From: Rhodothermus profundi
Lineage (GTDB): Bacteria > Bacteroidota > Rhodothermia > Rhodothermales > Rhodothermaceae
Reading direction: 5' to 3'
DNA length: 64,000 bases
Assembly: GCF_900142415.1 (NCBI RefSeq)
Contig: NZ_FRAU01000008.1
Span: forward strand, 3,013 to 67,012
Shown piece by piece: positions 48,438-64,000 of this stretch (its first letter is position 1; every line of letters begins with the position of its first letter). Both the position numbers and the translations under genes were made by a program. A model generated the notes under the pieces. That model did no database searches. It was not told where the DNA came from and saw only the letters and a list, made by a program, of their open reading frames with translations.

Positions 48438-48468
48438 TTTGTATTTTTCTGATAGGGCCGTAGGATTG
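48438..48468 (+). promoter_or_regulatory. Bacteroidota-type promoter of the Gld-like ABC operon
   Basis: TTTG (48438-48441), 19 bp, then TAGGATTG (48461-48468), five of six fixed bases of TAnnTTTG. It lies about 70 bp before the ABC ATPase start. Confidence 0.4.
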
Positions 48469-48536
48469 TGCGGTCTGGTTTGCTTTTCTGGCGAAGAAAG
48501 TCCCACCACGACCGAGTAAACACCGGCACGCGTGTC

Positions 48537-49463
48537 ATGATTGAGGTACGCGAGCTGACAAAGCGCTATGGGTCGGAGGTGGCGGTTGATCGCATCTCCT
48601 TTACGGTGCGGTCAGGTGAAGTGCTGGGGTTTCTCGGGCCCAACGGGGCCGGGAAGACCACCACAATGAAAGTGATTACCTGTTACCTGCCTCCGACCGA
48701 AGGTACTGTCCTGGTGGACGGGCTGGACGTGCGGCAGGATAGCCTGGCGATTCGGCAAAAGATCGGGTATTTGCCAGAGAACACGCCCCTTTACCCCGAC
48801 ATGGTTACCTACGATTATCTGGAGTTTATGGCGGCCATGCGGGGGCTGGATGGGGCGATGCGTCGGCGTCGCCTGGCCGAAGTGATTGAGGTGTGTGGGC
48901 TGGGAGACGTGCTCACCAAGCGCATTGATGCCCTCTCGAAGGGATATCGCCAGCGCGTGGGGCTGGCGCAGGCCATGGTGCATGATCCCCCGATTTTGAT
49001 TCTGGACGAGCCCACCTCTGGCCTGGATCCCAATCAGATTGTTGAGATTCGGAGCCTGATTAAGACGCTCGGGCGTGAAAAAACGGTCATTCTCTCGACG
49101 CACATCCTGCCCGAGGTGCAGGCTTCGTGCGACCGGGTGCTCATTATCCATCGGGGACGTATTGTAGCCGATGGTACGCCTGAGGAGCTACAGTCGGCCC
49201 ATGGGGGGCAGCGCATCCTGTTCGGGGTGCAGGCGCCGGAGGCGGAGGTGCGCGCAGCGCTGGAGCGGGTCGATGGCGTGCAGATAGAGGAGGCCCGGAT
49301 GGACAGCGACGGTACTGTACTCCTGCGATTGCGCACCGACGGCCGGCAAGACCTGCGTCCAGAGTTGTTCCGGTTGGCTGTTGAACGGGGCTGGACGCTT
49401 ACTGAGCTGCATCGGGAGCGGGTGGATCTGGAGGAAGTGTTCCGCCAGCTTACCATGAACTAA
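48537..49463 (+). CDS. gldA: ABC transporter ATPase, GldA-type
   Basis: A 308-residue ATP-binding subunit. Walker A is LGPNGAGKTTTMKVI near residue 38, the signature motif is LSKGYRQRVGLAQAMVHDP, Walker B is ILILDEPTSGLDPNQ, with the switch His in ILSTHILPEVQ. The C-terminal 80 residues are an extension with LRLRTDGRQDLRPELFRL seen in GldA and NatA-type ATPases. It pairs with the following permease and GldG-like protein. In gliding Bacteroidota these three genes are needed for motility, but the module is also present in non-gliding species, so its true role is uncertain. Confidence 0.92.
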   Translation: MIEVRELTKRYGSEVAVDRISFTVRSGEVLGFLGPNGAGKTTTMKVITCYLPPTEGTVLVDGLDVRQDSLAIRQKIGYLPENTPLYPDMVTYDYLEFMAAMRGLDGAMRRRRLAEVIEVCGLGDVLTKRIDALSKGYRQRVGLAQAMVHDPPILILDEPTSGLDPNQIVEIRSLIKTLGREKTVILSTHILPEVQASCDRVLIIHRGRIVADGTPEELQSAHGGQRILFGVQAPEAEVRAALERVDGVQIEEARMDSDGTVLLRLRTDGRQDLRPELFRLAVERGWTLTELHRERVDLEEVFRQLTMN

Positions 49464-49476
49464 ACGGGTGGCAACG

Positions 49477-50184
49477 ATGCGGGAGATCTGGATTCTCACG
49501 CGACGCGAACTGCGGGCGTTTTTTGACAGTCCTTCTGCCTATATCGTACTGAGCGTGTTTCTGTTGATTACGGGGTGGTTCTTTGGCAACAGCCTGTTTG
49601 TAGAAAACGTGGCTTCGTTGCGCTCGGTTTTTGACCTGGCGCCCGTGCTGTTCATGTTCTTTATTCCGGCGCTCACGATGGGCACCTTCGCCGAGGAGCG
49701 CCGGGCCGGTACCATTGAGCTGTTGCTGACGCTCCCTGTGCGCGATGGGCAGGTGATCGTTGCCAAACTGCTCTCTGTGGTCACGGTATTGCTGGTGGCG
49801 TTGGCCCTGACCGGGATCTACGTGCTAACGCTGGCTGTGCTGGGCGACCCCGACAACGGGGCAACGCTCGGAGGGTATCTCGGGCTGGCGCTGCTGGGCC
49901 TGTCTTGCAGCGCTCTGGGACTGCTGGCCTCCAGCCTGACGCGCAACCAGATTGTGGCCTTTATTCTGGGATTTGCGATGATTTTTGGGCTGTATCTGCT
50001 GGACAAGGTCACCATCTTTGTGCCGGGCTGGCTGGCTCCGATTCTGGAATATCTGAGCATTGATTTTCACTACCGCAACTTGATGCGGGGCGTTATTGAT
50101 TCGCGCGACGTGCTCTACTACCTGTCGCTAACCGTGTTTGCCGGTTTGCTGACTGCGTACCACCTGGCACGACGTCCGGAGTGA
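49477..50184 (+). CDS. gldF: ABC transporter permease, GldF-type
   Basis: A 235-residue integral membrane protein with about six spans (AYIVLSVFLLITGWFFG, VLFMFFIPALTMGTF, VVTVLLVALALTGIYVL and others). ALTMGTFAEERRAGTIELLL is the conserved ABC-2 type permease motif near residue 70. It sits 13 bp after the ATPase stop and 3 bp before the GldG-like start. Start choice ATG 49477; GTG 49468 is possible. Confidence 0.92.
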   Translation: MREIWILTRRELRAFFDSPSAYIVLSVFLLITGWFFGNSLFVENVASLRSVFDLAPVLFMFFIPALTMGTFAEERRAGTIELLLTLPVRDGQVIVAKLLSVVTVLLVALALTGIYVLTLAVLGDPDNGATLGGYLGLALLGLSCSALGLLASSLTRNQIVAFILGFAMIFGLYLLDKVTIFVPGWLAPILEYLSIDFHYRNLMRGVIDSRDVLYYLSLTVFAGLLTAYHLARRPE

Positions 50185-50187
50185 GCC

Positions 50188-51717
50188 ATGCAACGGAATT
50201 GGACCACACGCACGACGCTGCTGCTGGCGGGGCTAATTCTGGTTGTACTCAACCTGATCGGCCTGAACGTTTTCTTCCGTCTCGATCTGACGGACGACCG
50301 GGTCTATTCGCTCTCCGAGGCTTCCATTGAAACGGTTCGCAATCTGGACGACCCGGTTACCGTACGGGTATTCTTTACGGCTGATTTGCCTGCTCCGTAC
50401 AGCAGTTACCGGCGGTTTTTGCGGGATAAGTTGGACGAGTACCGCGCCTACGGAGGCAACAAGTTTCAGTATGAATTCCTGGACCCGGGAGCCGACGAGT
50501 CGTTGCAGCAGGAGGTCGCCCGCTACAACATTCCACCGGTGCAGGTGCAGGTGATTGAGGATGACAATCTGCAGATTAAAAATGCCTACATGGGGCTGGT
50601 CATTGAATATGGGGGCGAGCGGGAAACGATTCCGGTGATTGAGGACCTCTCGACGTTGGAGTATGACCTGACCAGCGCCATCCGAAAGCTCACGCGCGAG
50701 CGGCTTCCCGTGGTGGGATTGTTGACCGGGCACGGAGAGACCGGACGGGCGGCAATGGAGACGTTCTGGCGGGGATTGGAACGCAACTATGACGTGCGGA
50801 CCGTTACGGTAAAGGGAGACAGCACGCTGGATCCGCGGCCGGATGTACTCTTCATCATTGCGCCGACTGATACGTTTCCAGAACCCCACCTGCAGGTGCT
50901 GGATCGGTATCTGATGGAAGGGGGGCGCATTGCGGTGCTGCTAAACCGGATCAATGCAAACTTGCAGTTTGGCTTTGCCAGTGAGCAGGAGACCCGACTG
51001 GAGGAGCTGCTGGCGCATTACGGGGCCGTTGTGCGGCCTGACCTGGTGATGGACCGGCAGAGCTCGGTGGTCACGATGCAGCGGACGGTCGGCTTTTTCC
51101 GGGTGGCGCAAATGATTGAATATCCCTTTTTCCCGATAGCGACGCGTTTCAATCTGGACCATCCCATGGTCAGCCGCTTGCGTGAGGTCTTCTTCTACTA
51201 CGTCAGCTCCATCGATACGAGCGCAGCGCTGCCAGCAGGGGTTACGCGGATTCCGCTGGTGTACTCTTCGCCCCAGAGCGCGACGCAGCAGGGCTTCTTT
51301 ACTATCCAGCCAGCCATGCTGCCGGCCACCGAGAACCTTCAGGATGGCCCCTATGTGCTGGCCGTAGCCCTGCACGGAACGTTCCCGAGCGCTTACGACA
51401 CTACGCGGGTCGGAAAGCCGGCCCGACTGGTGGTCGTAGGAGATGGCGATCTGGTTAACGAGCAGCGCTACGGAGGACAGATTCCACCGGGCAACCTGGC
51501 TTTTGCCCTGAACATCGCAGACTGGCTCGGGCAGGATGAGGCGCTGCTTACCATTCGTACCAAGTCGATTGCACCCCGCGCCTTAGAGCCGGTCAGCGAA
51601 AGCCTGCGGCCTTTTATCAAGTATGCCAACATTCTGGGGCCGGTGGTGCTGGTGGTGCTCTTCGGACTGATTCGCTGGCGCATCCGGCGCCAGCGTCAGA
51701 TCCTGCTGACCACCTGA
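50188..51717 (+). CDS. gldG: GldG-type auxiliary protein of the ABC transporter
   Basis: A 509-residue membrane-anchored protein with one N-terminal span (LLLAGLILVVLNLIGLNVFF) and one C-terminal span (ILGPVVLVVLFGLIRW). Between them lies the periplasmic part: FRLDLTDDRVYSLSEASIET, YEFLDPGADESLQQEVARYN, then a domain with LTGHGETGR and PDVLFIIAPTDTFPEPHLQV. This matches the GldG/ABC-type uncharacterised transport family. It is placed after the permease with 3 bp between, typical of the conserved order. Confidence 0.9.
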   Translation: MQRNWTTRTTLLLAGLILVVLNLIGLNVFFRLDLTDDRVYSLSEASIETVRNLDDPVTVRVFFTADLPAPYSSYRRFLRDKLDEYRAYGGNKFQYEFLDPGADESLQQEVARYNIPPVQVQVIEDDNLQIKNAYMGLVIEYGGERETIPVIEDLSTLEYDLTSAIRKLTRERLPVVGLLTGHGETGRAAMETFWRGLERNYDVRTVTVKGDSTLDPRPDVLFIIAPTDTFPEPHLQVLDRYLMEGGRIAVLLNRINANLQFGFASEQETRLEELLAHYGAVVRPDLVMDRQSSVVTMQRTVGFFRVAQMIEYPFFPIATRFNLDHPMVSRLREVFFYYVSSIDTSAALPAGVTRIPLVYSSPQSATQQGFFTIQPAMLPATENLQDGPYVLAVALHGTFPSAYDTTRVGKPARLVVVGDGDLVNEQRYGGQIPPGNLAFALNIADWLGQDEALLTIRTKSIAPRALEPVSESLRPFIKYANILGPVVLVVLFGLIRWRIRRQRQILLTT

Positions 51718-51736
51718 AACCATTCCGGATAGGGCC

Positions 51737-52654
51737 ATGCAGCGGAAAAATCCTGTGCTGATCCTGTCGGTTGTGCTGGTGGTCCTGCTGGTGCTGGCCT
51801 GGGCCACCGGTGCCTTCAAACGGAATCCATCGACCATTGACGTGCCGGAATGGAAGCTTCGGGCAGAGCGGATCACGCGCATTCGGTTGACGTGGCCAGG
51901 TAAAGAACCGCTGGTGCTGGAACGGAGCGGCGCAAACTGGCAACTGACGGCGCCGATTCACTATCCAGCCGATTCCTCCTTTGTGCGCCGTTTTGTGGAG
52001 AATCTGGCGAAGCTGGAGCTGGAGAGCGTTGTCTCGACTAATCCAGCCCGCTATGGTAACTATGGCGTTGCCGATTCAAACGCCGTCCTGGTGGTATCCT
52101 ATCAGCAGGATGGGGACTCCCTTCGCCTGTTCTGGGGTAAGGCAGGGCCAGACTTCCAGACGCGCTATGTGCGGCTGGGAGATGATGCCCGTGTCTTTCT
52201 GGCTCGTACCAACCTGACGGTGCCTGAAGACCTGAGCCGCTGGCGTAATAAGATTGTGCTGAACGTGCCTGCCGCGCAGCTTGAAGCATTGGCGTTAAAA
52301 CGCGAAGGAAAGACCTATGAAGTGCGGCGCGGAGAGGCCGGGTGGGAGCTGGTAGAAAATGGCCAGACCACCCGGGCCGATTCGATTGCGGTTGTGCGCT
52401 GGGCCAGCCAGTTTGATCCCCTGCGGGCAAATGGCTTCTTTGATGATCTGTCGGCCGATTCGGTTCGACAGGCACCGGATTATGTGCTGACGCTCCGCTT
52501 ACCCGGGGGCGTGCAGCAGGTTCTTTACTTCAAAGAGCATAACAACGGATGGGCGCTGGTGCGCGGAGATGATGATACGGTGTTTCGCCTTTATGCCTAC
52601 CGGCGCACGCAGCTCCTGCCCGAAGTTACTTCGCTGCGCGCAAGGTCCACCTGA
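51737..52654 (+). CDS. DUF4340-domain protein of the Gld-like module
   Basis: A 305-residue protein with one N-terminal membrane span (VLILSVVLVVLLVLAWATGA) and a periplasmic part of the DUF4340 kind: WKLRAERITRIRLTWPGKEP, LVLERSGANWQLTAPIHYPA (repeated later as EVRRGEAGWELVENGQTTRA), and DSSFVRRFVENLAKLELESV. Two copies of the same small fold seem to be present. Such proteins typically follow GldG-like proteins in ABC modules. The last gene before a strong terminator. Confidence 0.88.
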   Translation: MQRKNPVLILSVVLVVLLVLAWATGAFKRNPSTIDVPEWKLRAERITRIRLTWPGKEPLVLERSGANWQLTAPIHYPADSSFVRRFVENLAKLELESVVSTNPARYGNYGVADSNAVLVVSYQQDGDSLRLFWGKAGPDFQTRYVRLGDDARVFLARTNLTVPEDLSRWRNKIVLNVPAAQLEALALKREGKTYEVRRGEAGWELVENGQTTRADSIAVVRWASQFDPLRANGFFDDLSADSVRQAPDYVLTLRLPGGVQQVLYFKEHNNGWALVRGDDDTVFRLYAYRRTQLLPEVTSLRARST

Positions 52655-52741: not shown

Positions 52742-55342
52742 ATGCGCAAACAATGGTTCATGCTCGGGGTGCTGAGCATCTGGAGTCTGGGGACAATGGT
52801 CGGGCAGGCTCAAGAGCCCGCACTGGTGCCTCGATTTGAACGCCCGGTGGGGCGCCTGGTGTTGGCGCGGCCAACGCAGGCCGGTGCTTTTCTGGACGTG
52901 GTAGGTCGCCGGGCTGCGCTGCTGGGCTACGAGCACCGGCCATTTGAGGTCTGGGTCTATCCGCTAAAGATTCTGGATGATCTCCGGCTGGAATTTCAGA
53001 TTGCCGACTATCCGGTGCCGCTGAGCGGTGAGGAGACGTTGGCCTACATTGAGGTGCGTCCGGAGGCGACCGTGCTCACCTACAGCCATGCGGCGTTTAC
53101 GGTGCGCCAGATTCTTTACGCACCGGTTCACGAGCCGGGCATTGTGATGCTCTTTGACGTGCAGGCCGTGCGGCCGCTGACGATTCGCGTGGCCTTTCGG
53201 CCGGATTTGCGGCTCATGTGGCCGGCGGGGCTGATGACTGGTTATCTCGGGTGGCATGAGGAGGCGCATGTTTACACCATTACCGAAGAGACCCGACGTT
53301 TTGCCGGCGTGATTGGCTCTCCGCTGGCTCAGGACATTTCGGTGCAGCCTTACCAGGAAGAGCCAAAGGATCTGCCTAACCGTTTTGAACTGGTTGTAAC
53401 GCCTGAACTCGCTGCGCATTACTACATCCCCGTAATTATTACGGGGAGCATTGAAGGCATAGATGGGGCTATTGCGGCTTATCGGCGCCTGCTCAGCCAG
53501 GCGGAGAGCTATTACCGCCAGAATGTGGCCCATTACGAGCGATTGCTTGACGAAGCCTTGCAGATTGAAACCCCGGATCCAAGGCTGAACGCCGCCTACG
53601 CCTGGGCACTGGTAGGTATTGATAAAGGGCTGGCCACCAATCCGTATCTGGGTACCGGGCTGGTAGCCGGATTCCGGACGGCAGGCAATAGCGAGCGGCC
53701 TGGTTTTGCCTGGTTTTTTGGGCGCGATGCACTCTGGACCGTACTGGCCACCACGGCGGTCGGCCATTTTGAAACGACGCGCACAGCGCTGGACTTTCTG
53801 CGCCAGTTTCAGCGGGAAGATGGCAAAATTCCCCACGAAATTTCTCAGAGCGCAGCGCTAATCGATTGGTTTGAGGCGTATCCGTATCCCTGGGCCTCAG
53901 CGGATGCAACACCGCTTTTCATCATCGCGCATGCCGACTACTGGCAGACCAGTGGTGATCTGGACTACATTCGCCAGCACTGGACGTCGCTTGTAAGGGC
54001 TTACCGCTTTACAGCAGGTACTGATACCGACGGAAACGATCTGGTAGAAAATACGGGCGTGGGGCACGGCTGGGTGGAAGGAGGACAGCTCTATCCTCCG
54101 CATGAGGAACTGTACCAGCAGGGGGTGTGGCTGGCTGCGCTGGAGGGAATGGAGGCAATGGCGCAGGCGCTGGGGGAGACGGAGCTGGCGGCCGAGGTGC
54201 GTCAGCGGGCGCTTGCGGTGCGAGCGGCGATTGAGCGCACCTACTGGCTGGAAGACGAGGGATACTATGCCTTTGCTACCTGGAAGCCGGCAGGAGCGAC
54301 AGCGCTGGAGTTGCTCAGAGAAAACACGGTACTGCAGGCAGTCCCCCTCTGGTGGCGGTTGCTCAGCCCGGAGCGAGCACGTCGCGCCCTGGAGCACATA
54401 GGAAGCGCTTATCTGGCTACAGACTGGGGCACCCGCATTCTCTCCAGCGCCAGCCGTCGGTATGATCCCCTTTCTTACCATCATGGATCGGTCTGGCCCC
54501 TGTTTACGGGATGGGCATCAATGGCGGCCTATCGGTATGAAAAGCCGCATATTGGCTACCAGGCCCTGATGGCCAATGTCCTGCTGACGTATCAGGGAGC
54601 ACTGGGGTACGTGACGGAGCTGCTCTCAGGGGCCTTTAATCGGGATTTTGGGCGGTCGTCGCACCATCAGGTCTGGTCTGAAGCCATGGTGGTAACGCCG
54701 CTGGTGCGGGGGTTACTGGGGCTTGAGGTGCAAGAGGGCGGTCGTGTGTTGCGCGTTGCGCCGCAGCTACCCGCTGTATGGGACTCGGTGCAGTTGCGAC
54801 ATGTGCCGGTAGGGCAGGATCGGTATGCGCTGACCTTCCGGCGCACCAGCGATGCCTTTGAGGTTCAGCTTGTGCCGGAAGGCGAGGCGGCGCCGATTTC
54901 GCTGGACCTGGCCCCTGCCTTTCCCCGGGACGCCCGGGTAGAGGCGGTAACGGTAAACGATCGGCCGGCGGTGTTTGAGGTGCGGGAAGAAGGAGACTGG
55001 CAGCGCGTGCGCATCCGCGTGCCGGTGGGAGAGGCGACCACGATCCGGTATCGCATGCAGCCCGGAACGGATGTGTATGTGGCGCCGGAGCCATTGGTGC
55101 CGGGCATGGACAACCAGGGACTGCGCGTGCTGCAGGTACGTGCCGACGCAGATGCGTTGCAACTGGTGCTGGAAGGACGCGCGGGCCGAACGTATACGCT
55201 GCAGGTCCGCACGCCGCGGCAGTTGCAGGCTGTCGAAGGTGTGCAGCTTAAACCAGAAGGCAATGGGTACCGCGTGCAGGTGCATTTTGCGGGCCAGACG
55301 AATGCTTATGTGCGCCGCACCCTTCGACTTCCCTTCCAGTAA
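52742..55342 (+). CDS. Secreted (alpha/alpha)6-barrel glycosidase
   Basis: An 866-residue protein with signal peptide (MLGVLSIWSLGTMVGQA). After an N-terminal beta-sandwich (about 30-270), residues 280-690 form the six-hairpin toroid: NAAYAWALVGIDKGLATNPY, PGFAWFFGRDALWTVLATTA, REDGKIPHEISQSAALIDWF, DLVENTGVGHGWVEGGQLYP, SYHHGSVWPLFTGWASMAAY, FGRSSHHQVWSEAMV. This pattern matches amylo-alpha-1,6-glucosidase and GH63/GH15-like enzymes on alpha-glucan or related glycans. The exact family and catalytic acids need alignment. It heads the third Sus-type locus, which suggests it degrades the same polymer. Confidence 0.85.
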   Translation: MRKQWFMLGVLSIWSLGTMVGQAQEPALVPRFERPVGRLVLARPTQAGAFLDVVGRRAALLGYEHRPFEVWVYPLKILDDLRLEFQIADYPVPLSGEETLAYIEVRPEATVLTYSHAAFTVRQILYAPVHEPGIVMLFDVQAVRPLTIRVAFRPDLRLMWPAGLMTGYLGWHEEAHVYTITEETRRFAGVIGSPLAQDISVQPYQEEPKDLPNRFELVVTPELAAHYYIPVIITGSIEGIDGAIAAYRRLLSQAESYYRQNVAHYERLLDEALQIETPDPRLNAAYAWALVGIDKGLATNPYLGTGLVAGFRTAGNSERPGFAWFFGRDALWTVLATTAVGHFETTRTALDFLRQFQREDGKIPHEISQSAALIDWFEAYPYPWASADATPLFIIAHADYWQTSGDLDYIRQHWTSLVRAYRFTAGTDTDGNDLVENTGVGHGWVEGGQLYPPHEELYQQGVWLAALEGMEAMAQALGETELAAEVRQRALAVRAAIERTYWLEDEGYYAFATWKPAGATALELLRENTVLQAVPLWWRLLSPERARRALEHIGSAYLATDWGTRILSSASRRYDPLSYHHGSVWPLFTGWASMAAYRYEKPHIGYQALMANVLLTYQGALGYVTELLSGAFNRDFGRSSHHQVWSEAMVVTPLVRGLLGLEVQEGGRVLRVAPQLPAVWDSVQLRHVPVGQDRYALTFRRTSDAFEVQLVPEGEAAPISLDLAPAFPRDARVEAVTVNDRPAVFEVREEGDWQRVRIRVPVGEATTIRYRMQPGTDVYVAPEPLVPGMDNQGLRVLQVRADADALQLVLEGRAGRTYTLQVRTPRQLQAVEGVQLKPEGNGYRVQVHFAGQTNAYVRRTLRLPFQ

Positions 55343-55506: not shown

Positions 55507-55959
55507 ATGGTACAGCGTGCCTGGAAGGGCAGCGGCTGGCTGGTGGTAGGCTTGCTGCTCATCGGATGCGCCGGCAGTCGGTCGGTGAGCCATACCGAAG
55601 CGCCTGCTGAAATGGCTACGTCTGCGCAAGGCTCAGAAGGACAGGTAGTCGTGGCTGTGCAGACGCAAGAGACGGGCGAGGAAGCGCAGGTAGCGGTATC
55701 CTTGCCGGGGCGGGTGACAGCGGTGCATGTTGTGGAAGGGCCGTCCGGTAGCTGGACGGTCTACGTGCAGGGGCAGCAAGTTGAAGCGGCCGAGCCCCTG
55801 TACATCCTGGATGGGGTGCCGACCACGTCAGAGGTGCTGCATCGGCTCGACCCGCAGCTCATTGAGCGCATTGAGGTCCTGAAGGGAGAGGAAGCGGTTG
55901 CAGCCTACGGTAGGCGCGGCGCTCACGGGGTGATTCGCATAACGACCCGGCAGGATTGA
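55507..55959 (+). CDS. Lipoprotein carrying only a TonB-receptor plug-type motif
   Basis: About 150 residues. Signal peptide and lipobox LLIGC, a linker rich in Glu, Gln and Thr, then YILDGVPTTSEVLHRLDPQL, IERIEVLKGEEAVAAYGRRG and AHGVIRITTRQD. The same block ends the plug domain of the SusC proteins here (IDGVPIDNVP, IESITVLKDAAATAIYGSRG). Here the barrel is missing and the protein is a free lipoprotein. It lies 200 bp before a SusC gene. It could interact with the TonB system or regulate the barrel; this is inference. The frame is open to 55447, but the ATG at 55507 fits the signal peptide. Confidence 0.8.
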   Translation: MVQRAWKGSGWLVVGLLLIGCAGSRSVSHTEAPAEMATSAQGSEGQVVVAVQTQETGEEAQVAVSLPGRVTAVHVVEGPSGSWTVYVQGQQVEAAEPLYILDGVPTTSEVLHRLDPQLIERIEVLKGEEAVAAYGRRGAHGVIRITTRQD

Positions 55960-56019: not shown

Positions 56020-56027
56020 TACATTTG
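56020..56027 (+). promoter_or_regulatory. TAnnTTTG promoter box of the third susC gene
   Basis: TACATTTG matches the Bacteroidota -7 box TAnnTTTG fully. A T-rich stretch about 20 bp upstream lacks a clear TTTG. It lies 137 bp before the susC start, leaving a long leader. Confidence 0.4.
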
Positions 56028-56163
56028 AACCGGTTTAGCTGGCCGGTGTCCCTTGAGAAGGGGATTGCATTTCGTGGGAAAAGCTTGGAGATTTTGACTG
56101 AAAGCGTTCCCACAGAATGTGAAAATACCCGCTTTATCCAACCAACTGGAGCTACAGGTTGCT

Positions 56164-59100
56164 ATGAGAACGTTGCTTCCACGGAGCCTCTGGCTGGGGA
56201 TTTTGCTTGGATTCTGGAGTGTAAGCGTTGCCATCGGGCAGCCCCGGACCGTGACCGGGACCGTGACCGACGCTTCCACCGGCGAGCCATTGCCCGGCGT
56301 TAACATCGTGGTGCTGGGCACCATGACCGGTACGACCACCGATGTAGAAGGACGCTACCAGATTGAAGTGCCCGGTCCTGAGGCGGTGCTTGTCTTCTCG
56401 TTTGTAGGGTACGAGCAGGTGCAGGAAGTGGTGGGAGACCGTGCGGTGATCAACGTGCGCATGCAGCCCACCGTTGAAGTGCTTGAAGAAATCGTGGTGG
56501 TGGGCTACGGGGTGCAGCGGCGCGAAGACGTAACCGGATCGGTGGCCACCATTAACGCGGATGATGTGAACCAGGGGAACTACATTTCGCCAGACCAACT
56601 GCTGCAGGGACGCGTAGCGGGGCTGACGATCTTCGCAAACAACGGGGAGCCAGGTGCCGGCCTGAACATCCGTCTGCGTGGTGGCACTTCGATCAGCGCT
56701 AGTAACGAGCCGCTGATTGTAATCGACGGGGTGCCCATCGACAACGTGCCGCTCATGCCGCAAGGGGCGGGCATCAACGGCGCGCCACCGCCTCCGCGCA
56801 ATCCGCTGAGCCTGATTAATCCGAACGACATCGAGTCGATCACGGTGCTGAAAGATGCGGCGGCCACGGCTATTTACGGGTCACGTGGGGCCAATGGCGT
56901 TATTCTGATCGAGACGAAAAAAGGCCGTCAGGGCCAGTTGCAGGTAGACTATGACGCGTACATCACGGCGGCCTCACCCTACAAGAAAATGGATGTGCTC
57001 AACGGCGAGGAATATCGCCGGTTCGTGGAAGAACAGATTCAGGCGGGTAATCTACCTCCCAGCGCCCGGGATGTGCTCGGGAATGCCAATACCGACTGGG
57101 AAGAGGCCGTCATGCGCACGGCCATCACCCAGTTCCACAACCTTGCCTTTTCGGGTGGAACCAGCCAGACGCGCTACCGGGCTTCCGTCAGCTACCTGAA
57201 CCAGCAGGGGCAGGTGATCGATTCTGGACTGGAGCGGCTGACCGGTCGCCTCAATGCCGATCATCAGGCCTTTGATGGACGACTGCGGCTGCAGCTCAAC
57301 CTGACGGGATCCTTCCAGTACGATGACCTGCTGCCCTATAACCAGACGGCCGGATTTGAGGGCGGCGTGCTCTCGAACGTGTTCCAGATGAACCCGACGT
57401 ATCCGATTTATTCGGAAACCAACCTGGACGGCACGCCGGCCACCGATGGTTACTTTGAGATTGCAGACGGCCGCACCTCGGTGCGCAACCCGGTGGCGAT
57501 GGCCGAACAGGTCGAAGATATTGCCAAAACCACGCGCGCTCTGGGGAACATTGCAGCCGAGCTGGACCTGCTTCCGGGACTGACAGCCAAGGTGAACTTC
57601 GGGGCCGACCGGGCTCAGTCCAGCCGACGGCAATACTTCCCCCAGCAGAGCCCGGTAGGCAGTGAGTTTGGCGGACGGGCGTTGCTGCGCAGCCGTGAAC
57701 ACTCCTCGCTGACCTTCCAGAGCTATCTGACCTACCGCAACACGTTCGCGCAGGCGCACAACGTCGAACTCCTGGGCGGCTATGAGTTCAACGAATACAT
57801 GACGGAAGAATTTGGCGTAGAGGGGCGGGATTATGTCACCGACGCCACGTCGTACAATGCCGTGCAGGCAGGCGCCCAGTTGGTTAAAGAAGGCACCTTC
57901 TCCTTTAAGGAGAAAAGCCGGCTGGTTTCGTTTTTTACCCGGCTTAACTACAACTATCAGAACAAGTATTACCTGACGGCTGTGCTGCGTTACGATGGCT
58001 CCTCGCGCTTCGGTGAGGGCAATAAATGGGCGCTGTTTCCGGCTATTTCAGGTGCCTGGCGCCTGAGCGCTGAACCCTTCATGCAGGGGCTGGAGTGGCT
58101 TACGGACCTGCGCCTGAAGATCGGCTACGGCATCACGGGAAGCCAGGAAATCGGCAACTACCTGTCGCTGGCGCAGCTCGGCGCCCGGCAAGACCTGCAG
58201 GCCGTCTTTAATCAGACCGCCTATACGGGGTTTGCTCCCATCAACTACGCCAATCCAGACCTGAAGTGGGAGGAAACCTCCACCTTCAACATCGGACTGG
58301 ATTATGAGCTGCTGAACGGCAAGTTCTCCGGTACGATTGAGTACTACGTCAAGAATACCAGCAACTTGCTGCTGGAAATTCCGGTGCCGCAGCCCGCGCC
58401 GGTGCCCACGCGCATTGAAAACATCGGCAAAACGCGCAACCGGGGCTTTGAACTGTCGCTCGACGCGCTGGCCGTTGATCGGCCTAACCTGAGCGTACTC
58501 TTCGGGCTGGTCTTCAGCACCAACCGCAACGAAGTTGTCAGCCTGGGGCCCCACGACTTTATCGTAACCGGCATCGTGAGCGGACGCGGCCAGTCGGGGA
58601 CGTTCGCGCAGCGCTTGATCCCCGGTGAGCCGGTGGGGACCTTCTACGGCTGGATCTTCGAAGGCGTGGATGCTAACGGTCGGCAGCAATTCCGCGACCT
58701 GAATGGCGATGGCCAGATTACCGATGCCGACCGCACAATCATCGGCAATGCGCAGCCCGACTTTACCTACGGCTTCCGGACCAACATCTACTGGGGCAAC
58801 TTTGACATCAACATCTTCATCCGAGGCGAACAAGGGCGCGACGTCTTTAACAATACGGCCCTGGTCTACCAGACAAAGAGTGCCGTATTGCAAAACCAGA
58901 ACTTCCTGAAAGCGGCCCTGGATGACCCGGATGCGCTGGATGAGCCGGCGATCTATTCTTCGCGCTGGATTGAGGATGGCTCCTTTATCCGGCTGGACAA
59001 CGTTACCATCGGATACACCTTCAACAACCTGGGAGGCGTCTGGGGACGCTACGTGCGGCGGGCCCGCATCTACGTCACCGGCCAGAACCTGCTGGTGATT

Positions 59101-59223
59101 ACGCCCTACTCTGGCTACGATCCAGAAGTCAACATCAATGCCGGACTGGCCTCGCTGGGCATCGACTATGCCCAGTATCCGCGGGCTCGGAGCTTTACGC
59201 TGGGCATCAGCCTGGGCTTCTAA
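56164..59223 (+). CDS. SusC/RagA-family TonB-dependent outer-membrane transporter
   Basis: A 1019-residue protein. Signal peptide (LWLGILLGFWSVSVAIG), carboxypeptidase-regulatory-like domain (TVTGTVTDASTGEPLPGVNI; TDVEGRYQI), the linker EEIVVVGYGVQRREDVTGSV (the classic SusC TonB-box-like linker), plug with NEPLIVIDGVPIDNVPL, IESITVLKDAAATAIYGSRG, ANGVILIETKKG, then a barrel ending FTLGISLGF. It is paired with SusD 42 bp downstream. The preceding glycosidase suggests a carbohydrate ligand. Confidence 0.96.
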   Translation: MRTLLPRSLWLGILLGFWSVSVAIGQPRTVTGTVTDASTGEPLPGVNIVVLGTMTGTTTDVEGRYQIEVPGPEAVLVFSFVGYEQVQEVVGDRAVINVRMQPTVEVLEEIVVVGYGVQRREDVTGSVATINADDVNQGNYISPDQLLQGRVAGLTIFANNGEPGAGLNIRLRGGTSISASNEPLIVIDGVPIDNVPLMPQGAGINGAPPPPRNPLSLINPNDIESITVLKDAAATAIYGSRGANGVILIETKKGRQGQLQVDYDAYITAASPYKKMDVLNGEEYRRFVEEQIQAGNLPPSARDVLGNANTDWEEAVMRTAITQFHNLAFSGGTSQTRYRASVSYLNQQGQVIDSGLERLTGRLNADHQAFDGRLRLQLNLTGSFQYDDLLPYNQTAGFEGGVLSNVFQMNPTYPIYSETNLDGTPATDGYFEIADGRTSVRNPVAMAEQVEDIAKTTRALGNIAAELDLLPGLTAKVNFGADRAQSSRRQYFPQQSPVGSEFGGRALLRSREHSSLTFQSYLTYRNTFAQAHNVELLGGYEFNEYMTEEFGVEGRDYVTDATSYNAVQAGAQLVKEGTFSFKEKSRLVSFFTRLNYNYQNKYYLTAVLRYDGSSRFGEGNKWALFPAISGAWRLSAEPFMQGLEWLTDLRLKIGYGITGSQEIGNYLSLAQLGARQDLQAVFNQTAYTGFAPINYANPDLKWEETSTFNIGLDYELLNGKFSGTIEYYVKNTSNLLLEIPVPQPAPVPTRIENIGKTRNRGFELSLDALAVDRPNLSVLFGLVFSTNRNEVVSLGPHDFIVTGIVSGRGQSGTFAQRLIPGEPVGTFYGWIFEGVDANGRQQFRDLNGDGQITDADRTIIGNAQPDFTYGFRTNIYWGNFDINIFIRGEQGRDVFNNTALVYQTKSAVLQNQNFLKAALDDPDALDEPAIYSSRWIEDGSFIRLDNVTIGYTFNNLGGVWGRYVRRARIYVTGQNLLVITPYSGYDPEVNINAGLASLGIDYAQYPRARSFTLGISLGF

Positions 59224-59265: not shown

Positions 59266-60888
59266 ATGGCCATGATACGTTGGAATAGCAACACGCGGCG
59301 GGTTGCAGGAATGACGCTCCTGGCTTTCCTGCTGCTCAGTGGCTGCACGGATTTGAGTGAGGAGACCTTCTCGGTGATCACGCCGGACAAGTTCTACAAG
59401 ACCGAAAAGGAAATTACCGCCGCGCTGGCGCCCATCTACGCGCAGCTCCGGGCGCTGGAATGGAGCTATTGGACCATGAGTCAGGTTACCACCGACGAAA
59501 CGGTGGTGCCAACGCGTGGCCAGGACTGGTTCGACGACCGCCGCTGGCTTAACCTGCATGAGCACAACTTCCAGCCTACCCAGGTAGACTTCAACGGAGC
59601 CTGGGTAGACCTGTACACCGGAATCGCCCGGGCCAACGGCTTGCTTCAGACGCTGGCCGAAATTGAGGCGCCTAACGAGGCCCAGCTGGAGGCCGAGGTG
59701 CGCTTGCTACGGGCACTTTATTACTACTTCCTGCTGGATCTCTTCGGAAATGTGCCGATTGTCGGGGACGATGAGTTCGTGGTAGATCCCAATAACCCGC
59801 CAGCTACGGAGCCGCGGGAAAGGGTCTTCCGTTTCGTAGAAAGCGAACTGCTCTTTGCACGTGACAACCTGCCGGAGACTCCTCCGCTGCCCGGACGCGT
59901 AACCCGATGGGTCGCGGAAGCCCTTTTAGCTAACCTGTATCTGAACGCCGGCGTCTTTACCAAAAACAGCACGGAAATCGATCCAAACGGCTATAACTCC
60001 TGCATGGACGTGCAGACCAGCGGGGGACAGAATGCCTGCCAGGCGGCTGTCCAGCATGCGGACAACGTGATTAACTCGGGCTACTTCCGGCTGGCAGAGG
60101 GCGAAGAGTGGTTCCAGAACTTCCTGCCCAACAACGAGAACTCCCCGGAAATCATCTTTGCCACGCAACATCTGCCCGAACCAGGACTGGGCATGAACTT
60201 CCAGATGCGCACGCTCCACTACTTCCAACTGGAACCGTCGCCCTGGAACGGCCATGCCATTCTGGCCGAAACTTACAATCTGTTTGACGATGACGACCTG
60301 CGGAAAACCATCTTCCTGGTGGGGCAGCAGTATGCGGAACCGCGCGGCAACTGCATTGGCAGCCAATGCTACTCGCAGGGAGAACCGCTGACTGACCGGG
60401 CAGGCAATCCGCTGGCCTATACGCCAGAGATCCAGAATATCTTCAATGCGACCGAATATGAGGGCGTGCGCGTGCTCAAGTACGGACCCGACCCGAACCA
60501 TGTGGGAGGCGATCACGGCAACGACTATGCCTGGTTCCGGCTGCCGGAGATGTACCTGATCAAGGCGGAAGCGCTGAACGAACTGAACGGGCCCACTCAG
60601 GAAGTAGTGGACCTGATCAATGCCGTGCGCAACCGCGTCTTTGAGCCGGACAAGCCGATCAGCCTGGCCGACTATCCCACGAAAGAGGCCATGCGGGAGG
60701 CTATCCTGAACGAGCGGCTCTTTGAGTTCACCTGGGAAGCCAAACGGCGCCAGGACCTGATCCGTCACGGCAAATTTACACGGGCCTACCAGTTCAAGCC
60801 GCAGAGCGATCCGAAAGTGTTGTTGCTCCCGATTCCGCAGCAGCAACTCGACGCCAACCCGAACCTGGTTCAGAATCCGGGCTATTGA
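59266..60888 (+). CDS. SusD/RagB-family outer-membrane lipoprotein
   Basis: A 540-residue lipoprotein with lipobox LLLSGC (Cys27). Strong SusD features: TDLSEETFSVITPDKFYKTE, NGLLQTLAEIEAPNEAQLEA, EVRLLRALYYYFLLDLFGNV, RLPEMYLIKAEALNELNGPT, VRNRVF and ILNERLFEFTWEAKRRQDLI near the C-terminus, then PIPQQQLDANPNLVQNPGY. It binds substrate at the surface for the SusC before it. Confidence 0.97.
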   Translation: MAMIRWNSNTRRVAGMTLLAFLLLSGCTDLSEETFSVITPDKFYKTEKEITAALAPIYAQLRALEWSYWTMSQVTTDETVVPTRGQDWFDDRRWLNLHEHNFQPTQVDFNGAWVDLYTGIARANGLLQTLAEIEAPNEAQLEAEVRLLRALYYYFLLDLFGNVPIVGDDEFVVDPNNPPATEPRERVFRFVESELLFARDNLPETPPLPGRVTRWVAEALLANLYLNAGVFTKNSTEIDPNGYNSCMDVQTSGGQNACQAAVQHADNVINSGYFRLAEGEEWFQNFLPNNENSPEIIFATQHLPEPGLGMNFQMRTLHYFQLEPSPWNGHAILAETYNLFDDDDLRKTIFLVGQQYAEPRGNCIGSQCYSQGEPLTDRAGNPLAYTPEIQNIFNATEYEGVRVLKYGPDPNHVGGDHGNDYAWFRLPEMYLIKAEALNELNGPTQEVVDLINAVRNRVFEPDKPISLADYPTKEAMREAILNERLFEFTWEAKRRQDLIRHGKFTRAYQFKPQSDPKVLLLPIPQQQLDANPNLVQNPGY

Positions 60889-60991: not shown

Positions 60992-63900
60992 ATGCAGCGC
61001 TGGTCGTTACGAATTAGCTGGTGTTACGGCTTCGGTCTGCTATTGCTGATCGGAACAGGAGGGTGCCGCAAGGCCGAAGCACCCCCCGACACCCTGTTTG
61101 AGACGGTATCGCCACGTCAAACGGGCATTCGCTTCACCAATCGCCTGCACGAAACGCAAGAGTTTAACGTTTTTATCTATCGCAATTTCTATAACGGCGG
61201 CGGCGTTGGACTGGGCGATTTCAACGGCGACGGCCGACTGGATGTATTTCTGACGGCCAACCAGGGCCCCAATCGGCTGTACCTGAACCGGGGCAACTGG
61301 CGCTTCGAAGACGTTACGGAAAAAGCCGGGGTGGCCGGCACAAAACCCTGGACAACCGGGGTGGCGGTGGCCGACGTGGACGGTAATGGCTGGCTGGATC
61401 TATACGTATGTTATGCCGGACCCTTTGCCGATAGCCTCCGCGCCAATGAACTGTACCTGAACCTGGGGCCCGATGAAGCGGGCATTCCGCGCTTTCGCGA
61501 AGCCGCCGCCGAACTGGGCCTGGCCGACACCGGCTTTTCGGTCCATGCCGCCTTTTTCGATTATGACCGGGACGGAGACCTGGACGTCTACGTGCTGAAC
61601 AACTCCATGCGGCCCATCATCAGTCTGGACTTCCGCAACACGCGCCATGAACGCAACCACGAAGGCGGCGACCGCCTGTATCGCAACGATAACGGCCGCT
61701 TTGTAGATGTAAGTGCCGAAGCCGGCATCTATGGACCGGAAATCGCTTTTGGCCTGGGGGTAACCGTGGCCGATCTCAACCGGGATGGCTGGCCCGACCT
61801 GTACATTTCCAATGATTTCTTTGAGCGCGACTACCTCTATTTGAATCAGGGCGACGGCACCTTCCGGGAAGTTCTGGAAGAGGCCATGGCCTATCTCAGC
61901 CTGTCGTCTATGGGCGCAGACGCTGCCGACATCGACAATGATGGGCTACCGGAGCTTTTTGTAACCGACATGCTGCCCGAAGAGGATGCGCGGCTGAAAA
62001 CTACGACCACCTTCGAAGGCTGGCAGCTCTATCAGACCAAAGTGGAGAACGGGTTTTACCACCAGTTTACCCGCAACACCCTGCAATACAACAACGGAGA
62101 CGGCACCTTCAGCGAAATCGGTATGTGGGCCGGGGTGGCCGCGACCGACTGGAGCTGGGCCGCGCTGATCTTTGATGCTGATCTGGATGGGTATAAGGAT
62201 ATCTTTGTGGCCAACGGTATCTTCTGGGACGTGATCGATCAGGATTACCTCGAATACCTGTCGGCCGAAGAAACCATGCGGGCGGTCATTCGAGAGGAAG
62301 GGGTCGATTACCTGACGCTGATCCGAAGAATGCCCTCCCATCCCCTCCCAAACTACGCCTTTCGCAACAACGGAGACCGCACGTTTACAAATCAGGCGCA
62401 GGAGTGGGGGCTCGGACAACCCGGTTTTTCCAGTGGAGCCGCCTACGGGGATCTGGACGGCGATGGCGATCTGGACCTGATTGTCAACGACGTGAACGGG
62501 CCGGCGCGCGTCTACCGCAACCAGGCCCGGGAACGATTGGGAAGACGCTTTCTGCAGGTGCAACTGGTGGGCACGCCGCCTAATACTCAGGGAATCGGGG
62601 CCCAGGTGACAGTACTGGCAGGAGAGCAGCGCTTCTACCAGGAGCAGATGCCCAACCGGGGGTTCCAGTCGTCCGTGGATCCGGTGCTGACCTTTGGGCT
62701 GGGAAGCCTGGACACCGTGGATGCGGTGGTTGTGGTCTGGCCCGACGGCCGCTACGAGATGCGTCGTCACGTAGCCACCAACCAGCGGCTGGTCTTCCGG
62801 CAGGAAGAGGCCCTGGTCGGTCAGCCTGACGAGCCGCTGGTCCCGGCACGGGCGAGGCCCCGCTTTGTAGAGGTTACCGAACGGGTTGCCCTGCATTACC
62901 GCCACCAGGAAGATGCCTTCGTGGACTTTCTGCGCGAAGGACTCATGCCCTGGATGCGTTCCCGTGAGGGGCCGCGTGTGGCCGTAGGGGATGTAAATGG
63001 CGACGGGCGTGACGATTTCTATCTGGGAGGAGCCAAAGGCTTTCCGGGAGCGCTTTTTGTCCAGCAGCCTGATGGTCGGTTCGCACGCACCAATGAGGCC
63101 CTGTTTGCCGTGGATGCGCTCTCCGAGGATATAGGCGCCGTGTTTTTCGACGCGGATGGGGACGGGGATCTGGACCTGTACGTGGTCAGTGGTGGCAATG
63201 CTTACGCCCCCCGGGCCCCGGCCCTCCAGGATCGGCTGTACCTGAACGATGGGCAGGGACGCTTCCGAAAGGCTGTAAACCACCTGCCGCGCATTCGCAG
63301 CAGCGGCGGACCCGTAGCAGCGGCCGACTATGATGGAGACGGCGATGTCGATCTGTTTGTGGGAGGACGCGTTGAGCCCTGGTTCTATGGCCAGGCGCCG
63401 GAAAGCCTGCTGCTACTTAATAACGGGCAGGGACGCTTTACCAACGTCGCCGATGCGCAGGCACCGGGTCTGTCCCGCGTAGGCATGGTGACCGACGCGG
63501 CCTGGGCGGACTTTGACGGCGACGGACAGCTTGACCTGCTCGTCGTGGGCGAATGGATGCCACTCACGATCTTCCGCAATACCGGAAACGGTCGGCTGGA
63601 ACGCTGGGAGCTACCCGACCTGGCCACCACTTCGGGCATCTGGCACCGCGTAGCGGTGGCGGACTTCGACGGCGATGGTGATCCAGACTTTATCGCGGCA
63701 AATCTGGGGCTGAATACGCCCCTGAAAGCGTCTCCGGAGACACCGCTTCGGCTTTTTGTGAAGGACTTTGATCAAAACGGCTTTGCGGATCACCTGTTGG
63801 CCCGTCCCGAAAGCACCGCTGTTGGATGGCGGCACCGTCCCCTGAACCTGCGCCGCGAACTGCTGGGCCAGTTGCCTTTTCTCCGCGCCCGCATTCCTTC

Positions 63901-64000
63901 GCATGCCGCCTATGCGCGCATGATGTTAGAAGATTTTCTACAACCAGAGGAGCTGGAAGGCGCAGTGGTGCTGGAGGTGCAGGAATTGCGCAGCCTGTAC
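60992..64000 (+). CDS. FG-GAP/VCBS-repeat protein with ASPIC/UnbV domain (cut by window edge)
   Basis: The frame is open for 1003 codons to the last base, so the gene continues. It begins with a signal-like segment (GFGLLLLIGTGGC, weak lipobox). Repeats with a DxDxDGxxD calcium-loop type motif recur: DFNGDGRLDVFL, DVDGNGWLDLYV, DYDRDGDLDVYV, DLNRDGWPDLYI, DIDNDGLPELFV, DADLDGYKDIFV, DLDGDGDLDLIV. Between about 510 and 590 lies an ASPIC/UnbV domain (LVGTPPNTQGIGAQVTVLAG; VVVWPDGRY), then a second set (DVNGDGRDDFYL, DYDGDGDVDLFV, DFDGDGDPDFIA). It is an extracellular beta-propeller type protein. Homologues often accompany SusC/SusD pairs. Confidence 0.9.
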   Translation, partial: MQRWSLRISWCYGFGLLLLIGTGGCRKAEAPPDTLFETVSPRQTGIRFTNRLHETQEFNVFIYRNFYNGGGVGLGDFNGDGRLDVFLTANQGPNRLYLNRGNWRFEDVTEKAGVAGTKPWTTGVAVADVDGNGWLDLYVCYAGPFADSLRANELYLNLGPDEAGIPRFREAAAELGLADTGFSVHAAFFDYDRDGDLDVYVLNNSMRPIISLDFRNTRHERNHEGGDRLYRNDNGRFVDVSAEAGIYGPEIAFGLGVTVADLNRDGWPDLYISNDFFERDYLYLNQGDGTFREVLEEAMAYLSLSSMGADAADIDNDGLPELFVTDMLPEEDARLKTTTTFEGWQLYQTKVENGFYHQFTRNTLQYNNGDGTFSEIGMWAGVAATDWSWAALIFDADLDGYKDIFVANGIFWDVIDQDYLEYLSAEETMRAVIREEGVDYLTLIRRMPSHPLPNYAFRNNGDRTFTNQAQEWGLGQPGFSSGAAYGDLDGDGDLDLIVNDVNGPARVYRNQARERLGRRFLQVQLVGTPPNTQGIGAQVTVLAGEQRFYQEQMPNRGFQSSVDPVLTFGLGSLDTVDAVVVVWPDGRYEMRRHVATNQRLVFRQEEALVGQPDEPLVPARARPRFVEVTERVALHYRHQEDAFVDFLREGLMPWMRSREGPRVAVGDVNGDGRDDFYLGGAKGFPGALFVQQPDGRFARTNEALFAVDALSEDIGAVFFDADGDGDLDLYVVSGGNAYAPRAPALQDRLYLNDGQGRFRKAVNHLPRIRSSGGPVAAADYDGDGDVDLFVGGRVEPWFYGQAPESLLLLNNGQGRFTNVADAQAPGLSRVGMVTDAAWADFDGDGQLDLLVVGEWMPLTIFRNTGNGRLERWELPDLATTSGIWHRVAVADFDGDGDPDFIAANLGLNTPLKASPETPLRLFVKDFDQNGFADHLLARPESTAVGWRHRPLNLRRELLGQLPFLRARIPSHAAYARMMLEDFLQPEELEGAVVLEVQELRSLY

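Follow-up and report, generated by a model that had tools for sequence, protein, structure and literature searches.

Lipid-anchored SusC-type plugs without a barrel, a conserved family tied to SusCD loci in Rhodothermales and Gemmatimonadota

What keeps the outer membrane sealed while TonB draws an entire plug out of a barrel as wide as that of SusC is a standing question, on which a locus of Rhodothermus profundi bears. This locus lies in a stretch of 64,000 nucleotides that was analysed as a whole (hereafter, the window) and encodes, just before a SusC receptor, a small lipoprotein that carries a plug and no barrel (Table 1). What is this protein, does it belong to a family, and what could it do at the outer membrane? 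A conserved, separately made plug encoded next to SusC would give a genetic handle on outer-membrane sealing; whatever the mechanism, a family so far annotated by homology alone is now defined, with a partner that can be tested. Neither the plug fold nor SusCD loci are new. Searches of the open-licence literature yielded no description of plug-only or stand-alone plug proteins, nor of a conserved, one-origin family of lipid-anchored plugs tied to SusCD in two phyla.

A lipoprotein derived from a SusC-type plug

The ORF can be read from an in-frame ATG, which gives a signal peptide followed by Cys21 (codon 55567-55569); an alternative TTG start, 20 codons 5' of the ATG, is possible and would place the lipobox at residue 41. 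The protein matches Pfam Plug with E=1.6e-9 over residues 59-142 (38.7 bits, for a cut-off of 23.9) and the NCBIfam SusC/RagA model TIGR04056 with E=8.9e-18 over model positions 103-205, corresponding to the plug region only, and these scores exclude a chance match. The three blocks singled out in the earlier note (YILDGVP, IERIEVLKGEEAVAAYG and HGVIRITT) are all present, within residues 99-147. The ORF ends directly after the last plug strand (GVIRITTRQD, then the stop), with no barrel in frame and no barrel match in Pfam or NCBIfam. According to Pfam, the N-terminal extension CarbopepD_reg_2 is likewise absent, whereas the adjacent SusC has it. The stand-alone lipoprotein with a TonB-receptor plug motif that had been proposed from the letters alone is thus borne out, and the window protein is almost certainly a lipoprotein derived from a SusC-type plug, without a barrel.

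Table 1. Features of the plug lipoprotein gene and its surroundings in the window.
Feature	Coordinates	Strand	Basis
Six-hairpin-type glycoside hydrolase, conserved upstream neighbour	52742..55342	+	PF22422 1.2e-11, PF17389 1.7e-9
Plug-only lipoprotein gene, 150 aa plus stop	55507..55959	+	In-frame ATG, Plug and TIGR04056 matches
Lipoprotein signal peptide, ending at LLIG before the lipobox C	55507..55566	+	Read from sequence
Low-confidence tether, residues 22-72, probably flexible	55570..55722	+	pLDDT block means 44-66
EGQVVVAV, residues 44-51, Ton box-like in position and composition; putative remnant, no GYG after it	55636..55659	+	Sequence, family alignment
Plug core, residues 73-147 (strands, helix 127-138, GVIRITT strand)	55723..55947	+	AlphaFold, Foldseek
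TACATTTG, like the -7 element TAnnTTTG of Bacteroidota promoters	56020..56027	+	Consensus match only
SusC/RagA receptor that has both plug and barrel; ATG 56164 is a possible start	56119..59223	+	TIGR04056 8.8e-257
SusD-like surface lipoprotein	59266..60888	+	PF07980 1.9e-29
FG-GAP/UnbV_ASPIC protein, continuing past the window end	60992..64000	+	PF13517 3.4e-89, PF07593 4.8e-22

A split receptor, with its plug here and its barrel elsewhere, was also considered. The genome of the window contains 33 Plug matches, the window ORF being the sole one in a short frame, and 31 barrel-family matches, every one of them in a frame of 671 aa or more. When the two lists are compared, a Plug match is found in each of the 31 barrel frames, so that no orphan barrel awaits the window plug, and this candidate was rejected.

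The AlphaFold model of the window protein, built from an alignment of 51 sequences, has a mean pLDDT of 66.7, with about 90 for residues 101-147 and low values for the first 70 residues. Searched against the PDB with Foldseek, it retrieves TonB-dependent receptors, with the SusC plugs 8aa4, 8aa0 and 8a9y at the top (E from 7.8e-6); RagA structures are also among the best PDB matches of the plug-only models. For a relative with a full plug (L094), the pLDDT reaches 76.2 and SusC plugs are matched at 2e-10. Profile searching by sequence also retrieves SusC, RagA, FepA and BtuB. As SusC plugs are present in the model alignments, the models confirm the fold class and do not constitute independent proof; within that limit, modelling of the lipoprotein alone, as the earlier note had advised, returned a plug fold with SusC plugs as the top match, and no different fold. 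The modelled plug only covers about residues 73-147. Many relatives have the whole SusC plug, beginning with VxVGYG...VTGSVS at the place of the SusC Ton box; this first part is lost in the window protein, where it is missing or unrecognisable, and in some other relatives.

Two other frames with a plug or a plug-like part were encountered. A 757-aa neighbour combining CarboxypepD_reg and Plug was discarded as a barrel-less control, its plug having no match to the SusC plug model. On the minus strand of L138 (4341-4535), a 591-aa frame carries at its C-terminus a plug-like motif of another kind, likewise barrel-less (MYVLNGE...KYGEAGKNGIIEL), perhaps of the kind attached to M56-type membrane peptidases.

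One origin, and a recurrent place beside SusC and SusD

Barrel-less plug ORFs occur in at least 32 of the 114 Rhodothermales genomes searched, and barrel-less plug lipoprotein genes in about 11 of 150 Gemmatimonadota genomes. Among 394 genomes sampled across Bacteroidota, none outside Rhodothermales gave one in a short frame at 1e-14, a threshold at which weaker or different ones are possible. A lipobox-like G/A/S-C site can be assigned in all 32 aligned plug-only proteins, the site of G001 being doubtful, and the relatives listed have a hydrophobic signal with G/A-C. A tree of 33 plug-only proteins and 53 SusC plugs (138 columns) places the former on one side of a branch supported at 100/95. 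When the tree is restricted to a 69-column core, obtained by removing the N-terminal half along with the main indel regions, the clade is still supported at 86/91. The single clade contradicts a history in which local SusC genes were truncated repeatedly and independently. A long branch, the exact placement of which is unsure, leads to the window protein and its G039 homologue.

Selection was estimated from ten pairs, two more having saturated synonymous sites. The dN/dS ratios range from 0.00 to 0.30, with 0.235 for the window pair; the value of 0.00 comes from an identical protein with synonymous changes only, and the other pairs range from 0.02 to 0.30. On values so far below 1, a pseudogene fragment was rejected. 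The plug-only lipoproteins are a conserved family with one origin from a SusC plug, cut just 5' of the barrel and equipped with a lipid anchor.

The earlier note placed the lipoprotein near a SusC gene, and SusC and then SusD do follow it on the same strand (Table 1). Within the genus, the glycoside hydrolase comes first and is followed by the plug lipoprotein, SusC, SusD and FG-GAP/ASPIC (window and L073-L076), and the same glycoside hydrolase neighbour is found in L061, L073-L076 and L083. The plug lipoprotein gene can also lie between SusD and FG-GAP (L166, L172) or 3' of SusD (L084, L089, L171); in L078 and L090, it follows FG-GAP and a PAP2-type protein and precedes SSF transporters. In the window, TACATTTG is the sole -7-like motif between 48 and 62 kb, with no -33 element at the tested spacing; this match suggests that SusC may have its own transcription besides.

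Among 36 plug-only genes of Rhodothermales, a count that leaves out a SusC truncated at the edge of L077, 22 have SusC, SusD or FG-GAP/ASPIC in the fetched stretch, always on the same strand (22/22), and for 14 SusC or SusD is no more than 1 kb away, the distances being approximate as they were taken from stop-to-stop frames. By chance, about 2% of positions would be expected within 1 kb of a barrel gene (30 barrel genes in 3.14 Mb), a rough figure that would be higher in the receptor-richer Gemmatimonadota. About 40% of the Rhodothermales members were not seen near SusCD, some of them owing to short contigs. For seven of the 12 plug-only genes of Gemmatimonadota, SusC or SusD lies at a distance of at most about 210 bp, and no FG-GAP genes are present there, so SusCD is the partner common to both groups. 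The survey of neighbours thus finds the SusC link again in other Rhodothermales genomes and in a second phylum, and the plug-only lipoprotein is very probably an accessory of SusCD loci. Neither of the two outcomes named as refuting in the earlier note, a different predicted fold or the lack of a SusC link in other genomes, was observed. It is dispensable in the congeners G040 and G041, since these keep the glycoside hydrolase-SusC-SusD-FG-GAP locus with no working plug lipoprotein gene. G040 has a decayed remnant on the expected strand (L162, 12071-12247, minus; tblastn 3e-7), while none was detected in G041 (L163).

These surroundings yielded further observations. FG-GAP/UnbV_ASPIC proteins of about 1100 aa, often as tandem pairs, accompany SusCD (window 60992-64000, L074-L092, L162-L173), and SSF transporters and a PAP2-type protein that is possibly haloperoxidase-like are sometimes present as well; the literature searched contained no paper covering both UnbV/ASPIC and SusD. 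Four genes (331, 238, 509 and 305 aa, the last one DUF4340) occupy 48468-52654, 5' of the locus; homologues of all four are found at the same place in L076, and of at least two in L075. Judged by sequence, this string resembles a GldFG-type ABC system. Tandem pairs of two different plug-only lipoproteins occur away from SusCD in L064 (G076) and L091 (G075), the former adjoining genes that match QTMAN_N and phosphoribosyltransferase domains.

Predicted orientation and possible roles

Acidic residues soon after the cysteine constitute an export signal of Bacteroidota surface lipoproteins (PMC5080379). Two or more such residues at positions +2 to +6 are found in only one of 32 plug-only proteins versus 16 of the 19 SusD proteins of the same loci, whose mature starts read, for example, CTDLSEET; the window lipoprotein has none. 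Because this signal is lacking, although the neighbouring SusD proteins carry it, the plug-only lipoprotein probably faces the periplasm, by a rule taken from other Bacteroidota than Rhodothermales. This prediction agrees with the periplasmic side suggested in the earlier note.

The identity of the lipoprotein and its link with SusCD are well supported; its mode of action is inferred. The family members may be plugs or regulators provided apart from the receptor, a role of which the literature searched gave no description. The reading that we prefer, still tentatively, is that of an accessory of SusCD loci that presents the SusC barrel, or the plug ejected from it, with a plug in trans; direct contact with SusC is a possible mode of action, to be held with similar reserve. 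That Rhodothermales and Gemmatimonadota share a dedicated family of plugs in trans, sealing or regulating SusC barrels from the periplasm during withdrawal of their own plug, is a bolder claim and rather doubtful. The SusC plug can exit its barrel as one piece in the closed state, with the SusD lid shut; the authors deem complete expulsion in detergent probably non-physiological, but in their proposal the closing lid loosens the plug, which TonB then removes (PMC7782687). In such a cycle, the lipid-tethered plug would sit on the inner face of the outer membrane beside SusC. Upon closure of the SusD lid and withdrawal of SusC's own plug, it would cap the barrel mouth or slip into it, or else keep hold of the displaced plug, so that leakage would be limited or the cycling frequency of the channel set. 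With only the C-terminal plug half in the window member, capping or holding would be likelier than full occupancy in its lineage.

The plug core is conserved across the family (R of IRG in 88% of members, K of VLK in 97%, YG, R of YGSR in 88%, NGV), with a shortened S-G-x-P-G loop and without the long loop 3' of DGVP. In receptors, the IRG arginine is part of a plug-barrel salt-bridge cluster, and its retention in 88% of the members favours a receptor-like contact. Its replacement in the window lineage (Q88), together with the loss of the first plug half, means that this lineage may not fit a barrel. Loss of the Bt1763 substrate-contact residues H169/E170 was dismissed as uninformative, as the loop concerned is variable in SusC proteins themselves. 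Wherever the SusC next to a plug-only gene is fully visible, it comes with a plug of its own, and there is no plugless barrel in the genome of the window; no receptor obviously needs the plug-only protein, which counts against a plug in trans.

The main rival is a modulator binding TonB, in which a lipid-tethered Ton box on a plug stub would compete for TonB-ExbBD or store TonB at the SusCD locus. The Ton box of the SusC Bt1763 is DEVVVTG (PMC7782687), and the EGQVVVAV segment of the window protein may be compared with it. A GYG motif, mostly after a V-x-V-like segment, is kept in 17 of 33 members, among them all eight Gemmatimonadota members compared, which have GYG or GYQ. Nevertheless, the resulting D-x-V-x-V-GYG-like element, seen in about half of the relatives, is a weakened Ton box with mostly polar residues in place of the middle hydrophobic ones, the other 16 members lack GYG and still keep the plug core, which argues against a common function of this kind, and a decoy could do without a conserved plug fold. 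Modulation of TonB is therefore unlikely. A sensor is somewhat less probable still: the plug fold would be reused as a periplasmic binder of a ligand or protein, reporting SusC transport to a regulator. The conserved C-terminal core, variable N-terminus and short loops would suit it, as would the linkage to catabolic loci, but Pfam detects no STN or other signalling domain, and no signalling gene was among the neighbours that were identified.

An assembly factor that stabilises SusC at insertion, or recruits it to SusD, would explain a gene adjoining susC/susD on the same strand and a product anchored in the outer membrane. It is improbable in view of the many SusCD loci without the gene and of a protein with no BAM-like or chaperone feature. 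Even less likely is a substrate-binding accessory at the cell surface, comparable to surface glycan-binding proteins: the protein is a lipoprotein of a glycan-type locus, but it has a plug fold, no carbohydrate-binding domain and no LES-like acidic signal. The least credible option is a functionless, decaying fragment of SusC. The remnant of G040, the absence of a detectable one in G041 and the long branch of the window lineage speak for decay; the single clade, the conserved lipobox and the purifying selection, which extends to the window pair, largely refute it. The receptor relict suggested in the earlier note is unlikely in this simple form.

Comparison with known systems

The window lipoprotein has the plug core of SusC/RagA receptors in sequence and fold. 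It differs from them in having no barrel and no N-terminal CarbopepD_reg, in its lipid anchor and shortened loops, and in a weakened or lost Ton box. With SusD and other PUL surface lipoproteins it shares the status of an outer-membrane-type lipoprotein encoded with SusC; unlike SusD, it has a plug fold and no acidic export signal. Signalling receptors of the FecA/FpvA type are likewise plug-based outer-membrane proteins, and the lipoprotein, too, may have a regulatory role, although it has neither their STN signalling domain (Pfam) nor a barrel. Finally, the plug and barrel of FhuA have reportedly been produced as separate chains and reconstituted in the laboratory, which would demonstrate a plug functioning in trans. 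That system is artificial, whereas here the lipoprotein accompanies a SusC with its own plug.
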